Source: a virus. From it: 24,874 nucleotides of DNA. The position numbers and the translations under genes are program-made. Each line of letters starts with the position of its first letter. Positions within the stretch are counted from its first letter, which is position 1. Positions 3,680 through 19,575 of this stretch are shown here, in pieces. A model generated the notes under the pieces. That model was not told the origin of the DNA. It saw only the letters and a list, made by a program, of their open reading frames with translations, and ran no database searches. The DNA lies in the IMG/VR virus record IMGVR_UViG_3300020186_000086, positions 1 through 24,874 of that record; one strand, written 5' to 3'.

Positions 3680-3754
3680 TCATCCTTTTGCAAATAATGC
3701 GCCCACCAAGATGAGCGCAGATATAATTAAGCCGCAAGTCTTAAAACTTGCCAC
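3680..3754 (-). CDS. Possible 24-aa hydrophobic peptide (second lysis peptide?)
   Basis: A GTG-started frame of 24 codons begins inside the end of the upstream structural gene and stops four bases before the ATG of the holin candidate. The product is hydrophobic from residue 8 on (GLIISALILVGALFAKG). The spacing fits the operon, but there is no ribosome site before the GTG, so translation would need coupling. Composition alone could arise by chance; low confidence. Confidence 0.25.
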   Translation of the reverse strand: MASFKTCGLIISALILVGALFAKG

Positions 3755-4230
3755 GTGATTACAGTTGCAGCGCCAGGGTCAGCAGACATCAACACGGTGA
3801 TAGTGTCAGCTGTTGGCGTTACTTTTTGCACTGATACCGCAGTTGTACTTGCTTGGATTTGCGCAAACACTAGATCAGAAGCAAGAGCACCCGTTACAGT
3901 AATAGTATCTGTAGCACTACCACCGGCGTACGCTTCCTTGCCAGCAAAGGCAACAACATAAGCAGGTCTAGTTCCGGCGACTGGATTAGCAATAAAATCC
4001 GCATTTACTGAGTCGTAAGTGAAAAATGCAATCCCAGCATCATACTTAATTAAAACAACATCTGTGTCTGTCCACTGAAATTCACCATTTTGCAATGTTT
4101 CAATATCAGATAGAATTGTAGAACCCGTTAAGTATCCAGCGGTTGTAATCGCGGTCAACGTATCATCAGTTACGATTGCGACGATATTTGGATTGCCCAC
4201 GAAATAACGACCTATTGAAGTAATAGACAT
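3727..4230 (-). CDS. Phage structural protein, Gly/Thr/Ala-rich beta protein
   Basis: A 167-aa protein with AAAGGAG eight bases before ATG 4230. Residues 1-75 contain an NPNIVAIVTDDTL and LQNGEFQWTDTDVVLI strand pattern; residues about 100-167 form an Ig-like or head-decoration-like beta domain (GGSATDTITVTGAL...ADTITVLMSADPGAAT). Proteins with this last module are common near phage head, tail and fibre genes and are probably virion-exposed. The position between the tail block and lysis genes fits a minor virion protein. No precise family can be assigned. Confidence 0.7.
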   Translation of the reverse strand: MSITSIGRYFVGNPNIVAIVTDDTLTAITTAGYLTGSTILSDIETLQNGEFQWTDTDVVLIKYDAGIAFFTYDSVNADFIANPVAGTRPAYVVAFAGKEAYAGGSATDTITVTGALASDLVFAQIQASTTAVSVQKVTPTADTITVLMSADPGAATVITWQVLRLAA

Positions 4231-5770: not shown

Positions 5771-6256
5771 TTATGTTTTAATACACATCAATACGATTGC
5801 CGTGGGTTGAATATTGTTATGTGCGCCACCCCCACCGGTTGAAGAGCTTTGTTGGGTAATTGCGGCATTTACACCGTTTACAGTACCGCCAGTGCTGGTT
5901 GCTGCATTTGGCCATCCAATGCCATGGGTATGCGCTGGCATTTCTGCGGTTAAAAGCGTATGAGTTTCCGCACCACCCGTATTACCAACCGCATTGCCCA
6001 GCGTTCCCGAGCCTGTTCCACCTGAGCCGGCCAAAGTTCTACGGCTTAGCGATGGCAAATTAAAAGTTGTTACGCCATCGCCGACGCCCCAAGTTGTACT
6101 TATTGCTGCGAACAAAACTGCATAAGTAGTGCGCGAAACAGCCGCCCCGTCGCATTGCAAATATCCGTCCGGCGCCAAAGTCCCTGCAAATTGAATGACG
6201 GTTCCCGAAGGATTCGAGCTTAAGATTAATGGACCATTTACGAATCCTTGGCTCAT
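5771..6256 (-). CDS. Tail collar domain fibre protein
   Basis: Residues about 18-75 are a phage tail collar domain (Pfam PF07484): GTVIQFAGTLAPDGYLQCDG, then TTWGVGDGVTTFNLPSLSRR. After a Gly-rich linker comes MPAHTHGIG, the HxH motif that binds metal in long tail-fibre tips of the T4 gp37 type, and a GAHNNIQPTAIVL end characteristic of these proteins. At 161 aa it is a short fibre-tip subunit. Its ATG 6256 overlaps the preceding TAA, with GGAG upstream, so it is coupled to the gene before it. Confidence 0.85.
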   Translation of the reverse strand: MSQGFVNGPLILSSNPSGTVIQFAGTLAPDGYLQCDGAAVSRTTYAVLFAAISTTWGVGDGVTTFNLPSLSRRTLAGSGGTGSGTLGNAVGNTGGAETHTLLTAEMPAHTHGIGWPNAATSTGGTVNGVNAAITQQSSSTGGGGAHNNIQPTAIVLMCIKT

Positions 6257-6609: not shown

Positions 6610-7689
6610 TTACCCGCCCATCAGCATAAAGGAAAATGCAGCATCTGCCCCGCCGGCAGCTGGCAATGACGATACCCAGTCTGTGCCATTGGAAGTCATG
6701 ACATTCCCGGATGTTCCTGCCACCGCTGGGTAAGCTGCTGTGGAATACGCAAGCCCTGCCGCAGCAGACGATAAAACTTGTAGCATTTGACCGTTAACGG
6801 TACCGACTGCAATGCGGGCATTTAATGTACTGAACCCGTACAAATCTCCTTTTGTCGTAAGCGGCGAACCTGCCCCTGTTGCGGCTTCGATAGTGATTGT
6901 GCCAGGACCATTGGTAATTGTAATGTTAGCGCCAGCGGTAAGGGTTGCAGCAACCGGCGTTCCCCCTGCGGAACCAATAGCCATCTGCCCATCGGTCAAA
7001 GGGATGTAGGTTGGCACGCCTGTCGCATTTGAACCAAGGATTGATGAGTTAGACGCTGCTAGACCTGTAAGCGTTGATACTGCTGATGCAAAAACTATTG
7101 TATTTATTGCAAAAGCGTCGGCAATCGTTGGAACGCTTACGCTCCACGCAGAGCCAGTTGACCGAATGTACGTACCCGCCGCGCCAAAGGCAGGCAACGG
7201 CGATGGAACTAGGCCATCCACGTAAGTTTTTATTGCCGCCGAGGTTGAAACATTAGTCGCCGTAGCTGTTGCAAGCGTTGCGTCATTAATAATGGCAGCA
7301 ATCGCGGTAGTTCCTTGGATTGCAAAAGTTCCTGGCGCATTTATAGTTGATGATAGGCTTATGATTGGATTTTCTGGGTCGGTATTATCAACGTTAATTT
7401 GATTGCTTGTGCCGTCTAGCGTAATAACAGATCCCGTTGTGATAGGAACCCAAGAAATTAACGTAGGGTTATAATACTCGTAACTTTCGGTCGTAGTATT
7501 TAATCGCAATCTATAAAACATTGCAGCGGCAGCGACAGGTCTATCGCCCGTTGTGCCGGGCGGCAAATAAGTCCACGGATTATTAAATCTCGTGTTTACA
7601 GTTAGGCTCGCATCAAGACCTACGGTAGTTTTATCATTAGATAAATCCCCGCCATTCGCAAATTCACTAAACTTTACAGTGTCAACCAT
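6610..7689 (-). CDS. Tail fibre protein
   Basis: A 359-aa protein, start taken at ATG 7689 seven bases after AAGGA (an in-frame GTG lies just upstream). The N-terminus VKFSEFANGGDL...TTVGL resembles the attachment segment of many phage fibres. The middle and C-terminus carry fibre repeats: LDGTSNQINV, TPVAATLTAGANITI, SPLTTKGDLYGFST and NGQMLQVLSSAAAGLAY, all low-complexity beta strands typical of trimeric shafts. It ends in a hydrophobic FSFMLMGG. Probably part of the host-recognition apparatus. Confidence 0.8.
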   Translation of the reverse strand: MVDTVKFSEFANGGDLSNDKTTVGLDASLTVNTRFNNPWTYLPPGTTGDRPVAAAAMFYRLRLNTTTESYEYYNPTLISWVPITTGSVITLDGTSNQINVDNTDPENPIISLSSTINAPGTFAIQGTTAIAAIINDATLATATATNVSTSAAIKTYVDGLVPSPLPAFGAAGTYIRSTGSAWSVSVPTIADAFAINTIVFASAVSTLTGLAASNSSILGSNATGVPTYIPLTDGQMAIGSAGGTPVAATLTAGANITITNGPGTITIEAATGAGSPLTTKGDLYGFSTLNARIAVGTVNGQMLQVLSSAAAGLAYSTAAYPAVAGTSGNVMTSNGTDWVSSLPAAGGADAAFSFMLMGG

Positions 7690-7715
7690 CACGAAATCCT
7701 TGGTGATTACAATTA

Positions 7716-8068: not shown

Positions 8069-10216
8069 TTAGATTACACCAAGTCTTGCGTCGGCTACGT
8101 AATGATAGAGCATCATTGACTCATCGCCGTCGCTAGGCGGCGTTGTGCTTCCTGAATCATACACTTTTGTACTCGTTGAGTTACAAATTAATACTAATCC
8201 TTTGGTTGATTGTCCTGTTTCTGTCCATTTTGTAATCACATAATCGGCCGGTGAAGAACCTAATGCACCAGCACCCGCCGGTACAACATCAGCCGCATTT
8301 CGAAGTACTCTTCCTTGAATATTGCCAACGCTTGCGCTGGCGGGTGAATAAAATGTAGCGGTAGGTATGATTCTTTTTACTTGATCATAAATTAATGACA
8401 AGCTTTGCAAATAAACGACATTAGTAGTAACGCTGCCGGTAATCCTGGTGCCCAGTTCATTAAGTGCGTATCTTCGACCAACATCCGTAACCGTACCTGG
8501 AACGGTTGAGCCGTCGTACGACTTCTCATAATAGTACTGGCACTCACGCAAAACCTCATCTTTAGTTTGTGGAGCGGGTCTTGTAGCAATATCACCGGGC
8601 ACTAACGAAATAGAAGCCACATCAATCACTGTTGCAGCCGTAACTGTCGCTAATGTCACGACAATAGCAAACTTGTCTGTGTCTGATATTTGAGCGTTAT
8701 CAGTTAACTGCCATCCAGCGAACGCGTAGTCGACTCCTGCGTTTATGTCCGAACTTACGGCAACCGTTTTCAAGTTAGCTGATGCCAAACCGTTTTCCCT
8801 AGTTATTTCCGTCCAGCCGGCAGCGCTTAACGTAAATACGCCGGTTGCTGAAACGTTACCGAGCACTGTGGGCACGGTTGGAATGACGGTAGCGGCGGGG
8901 GCTCTAAATAAATAGACTTTCACGTTTGCTGTTGTGCCAACCGTTCCTTTCCACGCATTTACATTTACAGACCAAGAACTTGCTGCAATTTTCTTGGCTT
9001 GTGATCCCGATAAATATTGCGTTAACTGAACGGCGGAATTTGCACTGGTCATCGTTATAGCTAGGCCGCCGCTAAGCGTGCTTCTTGCTAACGCGCAGTC
9101 TGCCGACGCTGTTCCGATTAACTGATCCCACAAATATGCGCCGCCCGTTGTAATGGTCATCGAATCCCCTCTTGCCTGAGCCGGATTCAATGCAAAATCC
9201 CAGCCGGTTAATAGCGAGGGAATTGGTTTGAAAATTAAGGGATCTCTATAGTAATGAAAAGTATGATCAATTTGCCTATCAATAGATTCTTGCTCAAACT
9301 TCGGCTCTAGCGGCAAGTCTTGCGCAACCAACTGAAAGCTTGTTAAATAAATATCAATATTGCTTGGTAGTGCCAAGCTATACTCAATATATGCCGCTGG
9401 TGGCACGTCAGGGTTTGTGGTTGCCGGCAGCAAAGCATGGCCGGTAAACTCATTCCATGATTCGTTAATAACCGTTGATGGCAAAACAACGCCTAAAACA
9501 GCATTGTTTGAGTCGATAAGGCTCGCGCTTATAGATTGAGGCGAGCCATCTAAGCGCGCGGTTACAGTGTTAGATACATATTCACCCGCCCATAACATGC
9601 CGTTTTGCTGAAATCTTTGTTTTAAGAACACACTTCCCGCCGTCCAGCCGCTAAGCGTCAACCTAAGCGCATAAGGCGCGTTTGAAGGGTTCGTATTCGC
9701 GCTATCAAGAGGCACTAGTGTAATTGCAGCCGTACCTGTTCCGGCGGCTACAAACGACCATCCCGGAGCAATGTCTGTGGGCGCGGGATTGGTTGCTGAT
9801 ATTGCCAAAGGTGATGTGAAATTTATTAACGAAAACTGAGGGTTTGTGACTTGATTGCCCGTTGAAAAAGAAACGTTATCACCGGGCGTTGTGCCGCCAG
9901 AACCTGCGGTGTAGTCGCTAACTTCATAGATTAGAGCATCGTTTTGTGAGGGTGGTAATGAGCCTGTATTTTGCCGAAACTCTAATCTATAAACTATCTC
10001 AGACTCAAAGAATATATTAGTAGGTAGCGTTCCATTTGCTAAAAATTGGATTGGAGAAGTCTACGGGATCAATAAGTCTGGGTCGTGGTAAACGGTCGCT
10101 GGCACGTAAGGCAGTACGTTTTGCAACACGTACATGTAAAACGTATCATCAAATAAATTACCCGTTAGGTCATCTAATAGCCAAATCGGATTTGCGCCCC
10201 TGGATCCTATACTCAT
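8069..10216 (-). CDS. Main tail fibre/spike protein interrupted by an in-frame amber codon
   Basis: One frame runs from ATG 10216 (after AAGGGG) to TAA 8069, except for a TAG at 10061-10063 (codon 52). The N-terminal 51 codons (GANPIWLLDDLTGNLF...LQNVLPYVPATVYHD) and the codons after the TAG (TSPIQFLANGTLPTNIFF) are the two halves of one conserved virion-anchor domain of podovirus tail proteins, in which I expect a Trp where the TAG stands. After the TAG the first possible start is a TTG at 9808 without a ribosome site, so the downstream part cannot easily be made alone. Beyond the anchor lie several jelly-roll-like beta domains and an ECQYYYEKSYD motif typical of tail proteins. Intact only if the amber is read through or suppressed. 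Confidence 0.75.
10061..10063 (-). other. In-frame amber codon in the tail gene
   Basis: Read on the minus strand the context is ATC CCG TAG ACT TCT. A single G-to-A transition from TGG would produce it. The frame is otherwise open for 664 codons downstream. Confidence 0.85.
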
Positions 10217-10288: not shown

Positions 10289-10357
10289 ATGTTAGAAGGC
10301 TTTATGTGGGGTGTGATTGGCGGCACGTGGTACCTGTGGTACACCGGCCGACTTTAA
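10289..10357 (+). CDS. 22-aa hydrophobic micro-gene on the opposite strand
   Basis: In the 147-base gap between two minus-strand late genes, a plus-strand ORF begins at ATG 10289, six bases after TTGGAGG, and ends TAA 10355-10357. The product is short and hydrophobic/aromatic (GFMWGVIGGTWYLWY core), like a single membrane-spanning or membrane-surface peptide. A promoter with an extended -10 lies just upstream and the gene ends seven bases before the stop of the converging gene. Promoter, ribosome site and ORF fitted into one gap resemble a moron-like unit; expression is not proven. Confidence 0.5.
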   Translation: MLEGFMWGVIGGTWYLWYTGRL

Positions 10358-13802: not shown

Positions 13803-14102
13803 TTATGGGTAGGCGGTGGTTGTAAACTTAACGAGCAAACCGCTTTGTCTTCCTACGTATAAATTATTTGTGGTGTCGTACAATAATGCGCCATCAACTA
13901 ACAATCCGCTTGCCTGTAATTGCACAATTTCCGCCGCTGTATAAGACATCGCCCGCAACAGATTAAAAGCGTTTTGTATATCGGCAATATTTTCGTTTAG
14001 CGTGTCTACTAAAACCCACATCCATTGTAAAAGCTGCGCGTCCAAAGTGCTGTTATTGATCACGGGTGCTGCGTCTATTCTATCTAAAAAGATGGTAGCC
14101 AC
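13803..14102 (-). CDS. 99-aa protein in the tail-needle position
   Basis: Begins with GTG 14102, sharing one base with the TAG of the gp10-like gene. Residues 20-48 are a helix with heptad-like hydrophobic spacing (LLQWMWVLVDTLNENIADIQ), followed by a small C-terminal beta unit (DGALLYDTTNNLYVGRQSG) common at the ends of trimeric phage proteins. P22 has the needle gp26 (233 aa, coiled coil plus C-terminal knob) at this spot. A much shorter trimeric plug is possible, but sequence similarity is not evident; it may simply be a small fibre-like protein. Confidence 0.55.
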   Translation of the reverse strand: MATIFLDRIDAAPVINNSTLDAQLLQWMWVLVDTLNENIADIQNAFNLLRAMSYTAAEIVQLQASGLLVDGALLYDTTNNLYVGRQSGLLVKFTTTAYP

Positions 14103-15889
14103 TAGTTAGCGCCCCCACTGATAGGTCTTGTGTTACGAACACCACCAAGAATCACAATGGGCGAGGAACTCACGCAGATAAGCTTATAACAGCGGTTACG
14201 ACTACAACCCAGCTCATACCAGCGCATCCGCCAACGGTATTGGCCTAATTGGCTAAACGGCCTTACGTCTGCATAGATGAATGTTTCGCCACCATCATCA
14301 GAATAATAAAGTTCAATGTGAGGCTTAAATAAATCGTTGTAATGATTGTCGTCAAAAGCGGGTGTGTTTGATGTCTCAGTAATAAGATATTTGTCATCTT
14401 CTGACAATATAAAAATAGGCGACTCCGGCGTGCTGTTCTCGTCAACAATAAAAACAGTATTACTAAACGGCGCGGTGCTTTGATAAAAGGTTTTATCACC
14501 AAATACAAAATCAATTTCCACATATTCATCCATAAACTCCGAGTAATCAGGCAAGAAAATTTGCTGAGTTACTAGCTCGTAACGCATCGGATACTTTAAA
14601 AATGCGTTGCTGCCTTGTGGGTTTGGTTGCGCTGTGTTGCGTAGTTCATTGTGATAGATGTTACCGGCCATCTCATATAAAGCTGGGTCGTCTTGAACCG
14701 TTACTAAATGATGATTGTTAAAATATATGTGTTTTTGTATGCGATTACGCTCACCGTTTAGCTCAATAACACGACCCCATTTCTTAGTCTCAAAGTTATA
14801 TTCGACGGCGCTTGCGCTATCAACAGTATCCAAGTCACCAAAGTTTATAAATTTCCCAGCACTTGCCCTATAAAATATGGTGTTCTCGTATTGATACAAA
14901 AACCCCTCAACTTTATTGATAATAAAAGGGCTGGAATCACTGGCTTGCCGTGAGTTTTCTAGCAATACGTTAATAGCTTGCGATGATATGTCTTGTGGCG
15001 CTTGTCCATTGCTCATCATGAAAGACACAAGCCCGTTGCTGTTTTTTGCAAGCCATATCATCATACCAAAATCAACCGACAAGCTGTTCGGGTCGGCTAT
15101 ACCAAAATCAAAGTTATATGATGAATTAATTTTCCACGGAAACTCTCGCGCAACCCCTGCAACCGTGATTTGTGTTGCAATATTTGCCCATACGTCCGTG
15201 GAAAAATCATTCATGATATAAAGCTGATTGTGTAAAACGGCAAGCTGTTTAATGACTCCGGAAGCTCTATTGTTTAGCGCTTGTGAGTTTATTGTAAAAT
15301 AAGTGTTTGCCGTTCCTGCTAAATTTATCTGACTTAAATAATAATCAGGTGTACCCGCTACGCTTACGACAAAGCGGTTACCGAACGCCGCTACGTAAAG
15401 AGGTTTTCCACCAGCGGTCGCGCCACCTGGGGCATTTGCATCGGTAACCACTTCTGATGTGACCGTTGAGCCATCTTCTTTTATCACAAAGATGTTTTTC
15501 TGATCGGTCATCATGTTATATATAATCGAGCCAACAGCTAAGGTTGCAAACCAGATCGGCGTGCCTAGGGCTACGCTAAACGATAGAATTTTGCTATTGT
15601 AAAACTTATCGTACTGATAAACAGTCGTGCCATCAACCACGTACAAAAAATTAATAGACTTGTAAATAGCCCGTGGTTCTGCGTTAAAAACTAATTTGTT
15701 CTCACCTAAAAACTCAACGTGCTTTCGACCCATTGCTGGATACATAGCCTGCTGCTTTTTGCCAGATTCAGCTTGAATTCCGTACCAGTTGGCGCAATTC
15801 ATAGCACCAAACTGAGTAAAGCGCTGCACATCGTAATAACAAAAGATATTAAGCGGCTCAATCTTAGCGCCTTCTGGGTTCTTTGCCAT
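14102..15889 (-). CDS. P22 gp10-like tail hub / packaged DNA stabilisation protein
   Basis: A 595-aa beta-rich protein in the place of P22 gp10, which closes the portal channel beneath gp4 and carries the tailspikes. Repeated strand motifs (FLYVVDGTTVYQYDKF, QLAVLHNQLYIMND, NFETKKWGRV) suggest a beta-propeller-like body as in gp10 (472 aa in P22, so this one is longer). The start is ATG 15889, sharing one base with the preceding TGA; a GTG at 15913 would add eight residues inside the upstream gene. It ends with TAG. Assignment rests on gene order plus fold-like pattern. Confidence 0.75.
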   Translation of the reverse strand: MAKNPEGAKIEPLNIFCYYDVQRFTQFGAMNCANWYGIQAESGKKQQAMYPAMGRKHVEFLGENKLVFNAEPRAIYKSINFLYVVDGTTVYQYDKFYNSKILSFSVALGTPIWFATLAVGSIIYNMMTDQKNIFVIKEDGSTVTSEVVTDANAPGGATAGGKPLYVAAFGNRFVVSVAGTPDYYLSQINLAGTANTYFTINSQALNNRASGVIKQLAVLHNQLYIMNDFSTDVWANIATQITVAGVAREFPWKINSSYNFDFGIADPNSLSVDFGMMIWLAKNSNGLVSFMMSNGQAPQDISSQAINVLLENSRQASDSSPFIINKVEGFLYQYENTIFYRASAGKFINFGDLDTVDSASAVEYNFETKKWGRVIELNGERNRIQKHIYFNNHHLVTVQDDPALYEMAGNIYHNELRNTAQPNPQGSNAFLKYPMRYELVTQQIFLPDYSEFMDEYVEIDFVFGDKTFYQSTAPFSNTVFIVDENSTPESPIFILSEDDKYLITETSNTPAFDDNHYNDLFKPHIELYYSDDGGETFIYADVRPFSQLGQYRWRMRWYELGCSRNRCYKLICVSSSPIVILGGVRNTRPISGGAN

Positions 15890-16830
15890 CAGATACCAGC
15901 CCTGACGCGCCACGCGCCATTAAGCATTGATTGTTGGTCGCCAGCGATTGATAAATTAACCTCGCTCGCAGCTTCCATATTATCCTTTAGCTCTCGGTAC
16001 TCGGCCTCTAAATCAGCCGTCCACGCAGAGCCGCGCGCCTTAAATTTTGACACGTATTTGCCTACAGCATACAAGAAATATAGGTGATAATACTCAGGCA
16101 CCGCACTCATGTCATCGCTAGATGTAAGCTTTGAAAGCTGAAACTTGCCACGACAATAAAACTCATACGCCTGACTTGCGCCAGGATATAATTGCGCGAC
16201 AACTTTATCGGTGTCGGGTAGCGTTATAATAAAGCGCGGCAAGCCCATAAGCGGCTCGTATTTCCATGCCGCCAGGAATTCATCACGGCTTTTATCAATA
16301 AGCGGGTAAGTCACGCCGCTTAGCAAAAGCCACGCATTATCAAGATTGGCAAGCCGTCCGTGTCGGATATATGCAACAGCTGGGTCACTTGTATCATGCG
16401 TAAAGTACAACGCTGAGGCGCCCGTGGTAGTTGCGTCCACATTCAGCGTAATTGTGTTGCCCACAACACTTAAAACACTGGCGGCCGCTGGAATTCCGCC
16501 ACCTGTCACCGTATCGCCAACAAAGTATAAAGTGCCGTTTACTACTGTGAAACTAGGTGATGCAGCTGTAAGCGTGACAATCTCTTTGATAGTTGTTGAC
16601 GTCGAATAATTGGAGTCGACAAAGTAGATAAGATTCTGTGAAGCTAAAATTGGCGTTGAGACGGTTTTAGCAATTGTCATCATAAGCCCAGAGCTTGCAT
16701 AAGACTGTAAGAGTTGGTTTAAAACTTGTATGGCCAGTTTTTCATCATCCCCGTGGAGCGGCATTGTTGGGTTTGACGCGCTGATAAGACGATACATTTG
16801 ATAAACAAAATCTCGTACAGTAAAAGACAT
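15889..16830 (-). CDS. Head-to-tail adaptor in gp4 position
   Basis: A 313-aa protein whose ATG 16830 overlaps the preceding TAA. The N-terminal helices (TVRDFVYQMYRLISA, DEKLAIQVLNQLLQSYASSGL) and C-terminal helices (YYHLYFLYAVGKYVSKF, ADLEAEYRELKDNME) resemble the helical ring adaptors that bind the portal, such as P22 gp4 (166 aa). Residues about 88-146 look like an inserted Ig-like beta domain (FVGDTVTGGGIPAAASV...GASALYFT) not present in gp4. It would act after packaging to stop DNA leakage and dock the hub protein. Family assignment is by location and helical pattern. Confidence 0.6.
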   Translation of the reverse strand: MSFTVRDFVYQMYRLISASNPTMPLHGDDEKLAIQVLNQLLQSYASSGLMMTIAKTVSTPILASQNLIYFVDSNYSTSTTIKEIVTLTAASPSFTVVNGTLYFVGDTVTGGGIPAAASVLSVVGNTITLNVDATTTGASALYFTHDTSDPAVAYIRHGRLANLDNAWLLLSGVTYPLIDKSRDEFLAAWKYEPLMGLPRFIITLPDTDKVVAQLYPGASQAYEFYCRGKFQLSKLTSSDDMSAVPEYYHLYFLYAVGKYVSKFKARGSAWTADLEAEYRELKDNMEAASEVNLSIAGDQQSMLNGAWRVRAGI

Positions 16831-18642: not shown

Positions 18643-19575
18643 TCAAATTATTATAAATGATAAAATATGCGCTATAACATCAACGGTCCAGCCATTGCCT
18701 AAGGCTTTGTATCGCTGTGCGTTACTAATTCCATCAGTGAAGCTGTCTGGCAAAGTCTGCAAGCGCTCGCATTCTATAGGCGTTAGCTTTCTAATAATAA
18801 AGTCTTCTGTAACGTAGTTATCTTTTTGTACCGTAGTAAGCGCGCATGTTTTGCCGTCTGCCCTAGTCTCGTAACCACGAACTATAATGCCATTATGGTC
18901 GTCACGCCTTGTGCCGTCTGCCGTTAGTCGTCTTCCTCGCTCGCTTGTTTGCGTAGGTTGAAAAACTAACTGCCTTCGGTGCTTTTCAAAGTAAGATTTT
19001 AAGTTTCCGCCTTTCCAATAACTTGCATCTATGCAATAACTCTTGTCCTTATCTACAACCCCATGTTCGATAATATCTTTTAAAAAAATCCCTTTATCGG
19101 TAGGCTGTGTGACGCTAGGTATGTTAGTCCAATAGTATCGGAGCCTGCTTTGAGCAGACACTAAGGCGCTGTTAATTGCTATAGGCTCAACGCCAAGCAA
19201 CCCGCTGATGACATCTTGGTATTCTTTTTTCATGCGTACGTTTTCAAGCAAGAAATACTTGGGCTTATAATGATTTAATATTTCTACAAACTTAAAAAAC
19301 AATTGACTGCGGGGGTCGTTAAATGCGAGCTGTTTGCCGGCGAAACTAAATCCCTGGCATGGCGAACCGCCCATGATTATATCAGGCTGAGGTATATTCC
19401 AAGAGCGCCAATCATTGATGCCACCAAGCTGCACTGCGTCGGGGTAATTCTTTTGCGCTACCTGTATTGCGTATTTGTCAATTTCACTTGCGTGGTAGCT
19501 GTTAATGGGTACGCCTGCGCGCTCTAAGGCTACTCGCCCACAACTAATGCCGTCAAACAAGCTTAAAATATTCAT
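18643..19575 (-). CDS. DNA (cytosine-5) methyltransferase
   Basis: A complete 310-aa C5-cytosine methyltransferase that moves a methyl group from S-adenosylmethionine to cytosine in DNA. Visible motifs: I LSLFDGISCGR (residues 4-14), IV GGSPCQGFSFAGK with catalytic Cys73, VI ENV (111-113), VIII QSRLRYYW (142-149), IX RKLTPIECERLQTLP, and X KALGNGWTVDVI. The FDGISCGR form of motif I is common in phage and solitary enzymes of the DNMT3-like branch. The target-recognition region between VIII and IX (about residues 155-260) gives no readable specificity. No restriction enzyme is beside it, so it is likely solitary and protects phage DNA from host restriction. It interrupts the scaffold-coat order and has its own upstream signals. 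Confidence 0.93.
   Translation of the reverse strand: MNILSLFDGISCGRVALERAGVPINSYHASEIDKYAIQVAQKNYPDAVQLGGINDWRSWNIPQPDIIMGGSPCQGFSFAGKQLAFNDPRSQLFFKFVEILNHYKPKYFLLENVRMKKEYQDVISGLLGVEPIAINSALVSAQSRLRYYWTNIPSVTQPTDKGIFLKDIIEHGVVDKDKSYCIDASYWKGGNLKSYFEKHRRQLVFQPTQTSERGRRLTADGTRRDDHNGIIVRGYETRADGKTCALTTVQKDNYVTEDFIIRKLTPIECERLQTLPDSFTDGISNAQRYKALGNGWTVDVIAHILSFIII

Follow-up and report, generated by a model that had tools for sequence, protein, structure and literature searches.

A private in-frame amber codon in the anchor domain of a predicted P22-type tailspike gene from an uncultured phage

The window, i.e. the whole stretch of DNA analyzed here (24,874 bases), corresponds to the complete IMG/VR record. 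Complete-looking relatives of this phage reach 35-39 kb, indicating that about 12 kb of its genome are missing from the record. The window carries genes for a P22-type coat protein (hits to P22 coat protein), a portal protein, a terminase, a head-closure protein and ejection-type proteins; this combination of P22-type coat protein and short-tail module is the one expected around a P22-type tailspike. A search of 20 records detected neither DNA_pol_A nor a tyrosine integrase. A DNA methyltransferase gene (18643-19575; PHROG 116, with a PCQ motif as in cytosine-C5 enzymes) lies between the coat gene and the gene in the scaffold position. The features on which this work focuses are the following:

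8069-10216, minus strand: predicted tailspike gene, 715 codons plus stop, cut at codon 52; AAGGGG resembling an SD ahead of the ATG; aligns over its whole length with uninterrupted relatives
10061-10063, minus strand: in-frame TAG (codon 52), read from the sequence and absent from all relatives
9896-10195, minus strand: putative anchor (head-binding) domain, about residues 8-107, which holds the TAG; profile match to 7eeq and fold match to the Pan3 spike 9vyg
9317-9859, minus strand: putative carbohydrate-binding module of CBM4 type (residues ~120-300), located past the TAG; fold match to CBM4-2
14102-15913, minus strand: head-closure (Hc3-like) gene whose final codon is TAG, at the exact position of TAA in relatives; evidence for TAG as a normal stop

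Reading of 8069-10216 confirmed the single TAG that an earlier note on this DNA had reported at codon 52 of an otherwise continuous frame of 715 codons. Read on the minus strand from 10216 to 8069, the frame opens with an ATG, runs for 51 codons to the TAG (10063-10061), continues for 663 sense codons and ends with TAA. The sequence upstream of the start ATG is AAGGGGTAATC, which includes the ribosome-site-like AAGGGG. When tail proteins of relatives are compared to the window by tblastn, the alignment crosses the TAG and stays in one single frame; the TAG therefore truly interrupts a conserved gene.

The earlier note had also stated that no ATG or ribosome site could restart translation of the remainder, and this holds: after the TAG, no in-frame ATG, GTG or TTG is found before a TTG at codon 137 (9808). 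No Shine-Dalgarno sequence was found upstream of this TTG, nor at any of the first in-frame starts beyond the TAG (codons 137-196). A split gene, whose part past the TAG would be translated from its own start, could make use of this TTG, but the product would lack the whole anchor domain; given the lack of a Shine-Dalgarno sequence, internal restart was rejected and we consider it to be among the least probable explanations of all.

The tail protein matches no Pfam or PHROG family at E 0.001, and sequence searches gave no solved homologue over its full length. However, a search with a profile of 33 tail proteins yielded 7eeq, a tailspike head-binding domain (E 0.00027, residues 32-82). The structure predicted for the protein, for which the stop was read through for folding purposes (mean pLDDT 77), points in the same direction: residues 8-107 resemble the anchor of the spike of cyanopodophage Pan3, 9vyg (Z 11.2, rmsd 1.9, 86 aligned residues), and residues 120-299 resemble CBM4 modules, in particular CBM4-2 (Z 16.4, rmsd 2.7, 158 aligned residues). 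According to these profile and fold matches to solved anchor domains, the predicted protein is a P22-type tailspike with an N-terminal anchor domain, and the description "anchor domain of the main tail protein" given in the earlier note was right in substance. It shares with P22-type tailspikes this anchor domain, in a phage with a P22-type coat protein, but differs from them by the CBM4-like module at residues 120-300. Since the TAG falls within residues ~8-107, it cuts the anchor domain in half, so that the CBM4-like module and everything after it are lost. Translation of this template would stop at residue 51, in the middle of the anchor domain, and would yield no usable spike.

The comparison with relatives also revealed a mosaic organization of the tail module. 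In ten relatives (L059, L060, L061, L063, L066, L067, L070, L074, L082 and L083), the tail protein differs in its N-terminal part (e.g., MALDERYIVASDLE...) and is shared only from about residue 115-121 on, indicating a swap of the anchor module. Conversely, L003, L004, L007-L009, L011 and L012 keep residues 1-321 and carry another C-terminal part in place of the one encoded by 8069-9256 in the window; their tail proteins are shorter (about 530-550 aa in all), and in L003 the C-terminus of this protein is similar to the collar-domain protein encoded at 5771-6256 in the window. Two other genes of the tail module are mosaic: (i) 6610-7692, of which relatives of 600-1128 aa conserve the first ~95 residues, and (ii) 3727-4230, which matches both ends of proteins of 236-287 aa whose middle part is absent here. 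A tiny ORF (MLEGFMWGVIGGTWYLWYTGRL, 10289-10357), located on the plus strand and thus opposite to the tail genes, is preceded by a strong Shine-Dalgarno sequence (TTGGAGG); in L002, L005, L006, L010, L014 and L028, the same slot is occupied by different ORFs that are short, hydrophobic and equipped with SD-like sites.

A relative encoding a coat protein 85% identical to that of the window (L085, BMAG01000039.1, a contig of 36 kb) was found in the single-cell genome BBSC-SA01, which was obtained from strawberry-farm soil and classified in Legionellales (PMC7453286). The presence of L085 in this genome suggests a Legionellales-like candidate host for this uncultured phage group.

The survey of the codon in relatives, which the earlier note had proposed, included 29 relatives for the N-terminal part and 35 for the remainder, i.e. 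45 distinct proteins. All the corresponding genes are uninterrupted: TAG at codon 52 is found in none of the 45, and is therefore not conserved. In relatives that have the anchor module, the residue at this position is nearly always Trp, as the earlier note had expected, the exceptions being Leu (L016 and L017) and Tyr (L071, L072 and L075); Trp is also present in two additional copies of the site taken from genome assemblies. No second copy of the site was found in the viral contigs collection, and no near-identical phage was found in GenBank, either at the DNA level or by tail protein. Furthermore, in the window and all fetched relatives, this TAG is the one and only internal stop flanked on either side by conserved sequence, which makes it more than chance; for the window and L002-L030, the survey of internal stops covers ~234 kb of conserved coding sequence. 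A six-frame comparison had given other "stops", which were removed by the stricter two-sided flank test; most of them traced back to spurious ORFs, either on the opposite strand or in another frame, or to alignments running past gene ends.

Two of the 29 genes of the window terminate with TAG. One of them is the head-closure gene, whose TAG occupies the exact codon of the TAA found in all relatives whose gene end was covered, which indicates that this lineage uses TAG as a terminator. It should be emphasized that readthrough of this TAG would lengthen the product by five codons only; therefore, it counts more against a reassignment of TAG than against weak suppression. Code 15 reads TAG as Gln. 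An amino-acid meaning of TAG, of the type known from code 15 phages, would account for the one internal TAG of this phage, but a phage using this code is expected to have many in-frame TAG codons and to avoid TAG as terminator, whereas a single internal TAG is found among the 29 genes and two genes end with this codon. Moreover, Gln differs from the Trp, Leu or Tyr found at this site in relatives. Recoding was thus rejected, the TAG of the head-closure gene standing where relatives have TAA, and its probability appears negligible. We infer that the TAG at codon 52 terminates translation as TAG does elsewhere in the contig.

The amber could also be suppressed by a CUA tRNA of the phage or of its host, or be read through often enough, in which case the full-length spike would be made. 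The 663 codons past the TAG are still gene-like and undecayed, and the ~12 kb of phage genome that lie outside the record could hold a suppressor tRNA. However, the window does not contain any tRNA gene, the tRNAs found in relatives are only Pro (UGG) and Gln (UUG), and no CUA tRNA was detected in the window, in relatives or among the 33 tRNA matches of BBSC-SA01, the single-cell genome that contains a relative. In addition, the window has one internal TAG only and two genes that use this codon as terminator. Suppression thus appears unlikely, and its more specific version, in which an efficient amber suppressor of the host allows the phage to keep the amber and makes the spike output dependent on the tRNA set of this host, is even more doubtful.

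Programmed readthrough, in which the TAG would be a conserved switch setting the amount of spike, agrees with the uninterrupted downstream frame, which aligns over its full length to relatives. Nevertheless, none of the 45 distinct relatives has the stop, no stimulatory RNA fold was found around or after the TAG (no better than shuffles, z = +0.65), and the main product would be a half-domain of 51 residues. A readthrough element was thus rejected for lack of fold and of conservation, and we regard it as very improbable. Overall, the other readings proposed in the earlier note, suppression of the amber or readthrough setting the amount of tail, are not supported: the stop is absent from every relative, the search for a CUA tRNA gave none, other genes of the window terminate normally with TAG and no stimulatory fold was detected.

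Several observations bear on the age of the lesion. The 663 codons after the TAG contain no second stop and no frameshift. At 89 conserved columns of residues 1-320, the window protein has three deviations, TAG included, compared to 0-9 in relatives, and GC3 past the TAG is 0.40 compared to 0.42 in other genes; each of these decay tests is individually weak, relatives being at most ~70% identical over the region and synonymous sites probably saturated. Taken together, they all point to a recent event. An old pseudogene, which should display further stops, frameshifts or relaxed constraint, was rejected, since there are no further lesions and the deviations at conserved columns are within the range of intact relatives.

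The TAG is unique among relatives, it is the only lesion of this kind and the remainder of the gene is undecayed; therefore, it very probably results from a nonsense change of a single base, recent and private, in a gene, intact in all other respects, for a predicted P22-type tailspike. The location of a lone random stop in this gene is unremarkable, since the tail gene accounts for 9.4% of the codons of the contig and 4.5% of the possible single-base changes in these genes create a stop. The alternative raised by the earlier note, inactivation of the tail or sequence/assembly error, is thus the one retained, the stop being private to this contig and the remainder of the gene intact.

This nonsense change could be an error of consensus, amplification or DNA damage, the phage in the sample having an ordinary sense codon, or a genuine variant, i.e. 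a genome unable to make its own spike that would be, within the population, either defective or rescued by complementation. An error would agree with the lesion being solitary, a single base from the codon that most relatives have, unshared by them and accompanied by no other decay. However, no other internal stop was found in the ~234 kb of comparable contigs, which indicates that such errors are rare in these records, and strict consensus errors are rare in well-covered contigs, which gives this explanation a low prior. It has slightly less than an even chance of being correct.

About the same can be said of the genuine variant, which comes just behind. The remainder of the gene is intact, in keeping with a recent event, and in-frame stops of bacterial genes are mostly short-lived population polymorphisms, over-represented in the phage/mobilome category, although many are artefacts (PMC7918605). 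Conversely, tailspikes are the means by which P22-like phages attach to their receptor (PMC3741392), so that strong counter-selection is expected; 20 records yielded no tyrosine integrase that would allow persistence as a standard prophage; and lethality should make such a variant rare, hence again a low prior. A genuine knock-out variant would persist only through complementation, or would be a dying genome. The division between error and genuine variant was made by judgement and not by measurement.

Two known situations are comparable to this recent and private nonsense change. In amber mutants of phage tail genes, such as the classical conditional ones of P22, one in-frame TAG also abolishes one structural protein while the remainder of the gene is intact; however, these mutants are laboratory isolates propagated on suppressor hosts, whereas the present case is one assembled environmental sequence that may be an error. 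The in-frame stops of bacteria analyzed by Belinky et al. 2021 (PMC7918605) include short-lived private stops in constrained genes such as this one, but these authors required stops to be shared between several genomes in order to limit artefacts, and the stop described here is unshared.

The finding is ordinary and matters little as it stands. It is mostly a caution, since a lone stop in a single assembled contig provides no evidence of recoding. If the amber were truly kept and suppressed, this would be a natural phage whose receptor-binding protein depends on a suppressor tRNA of its host.
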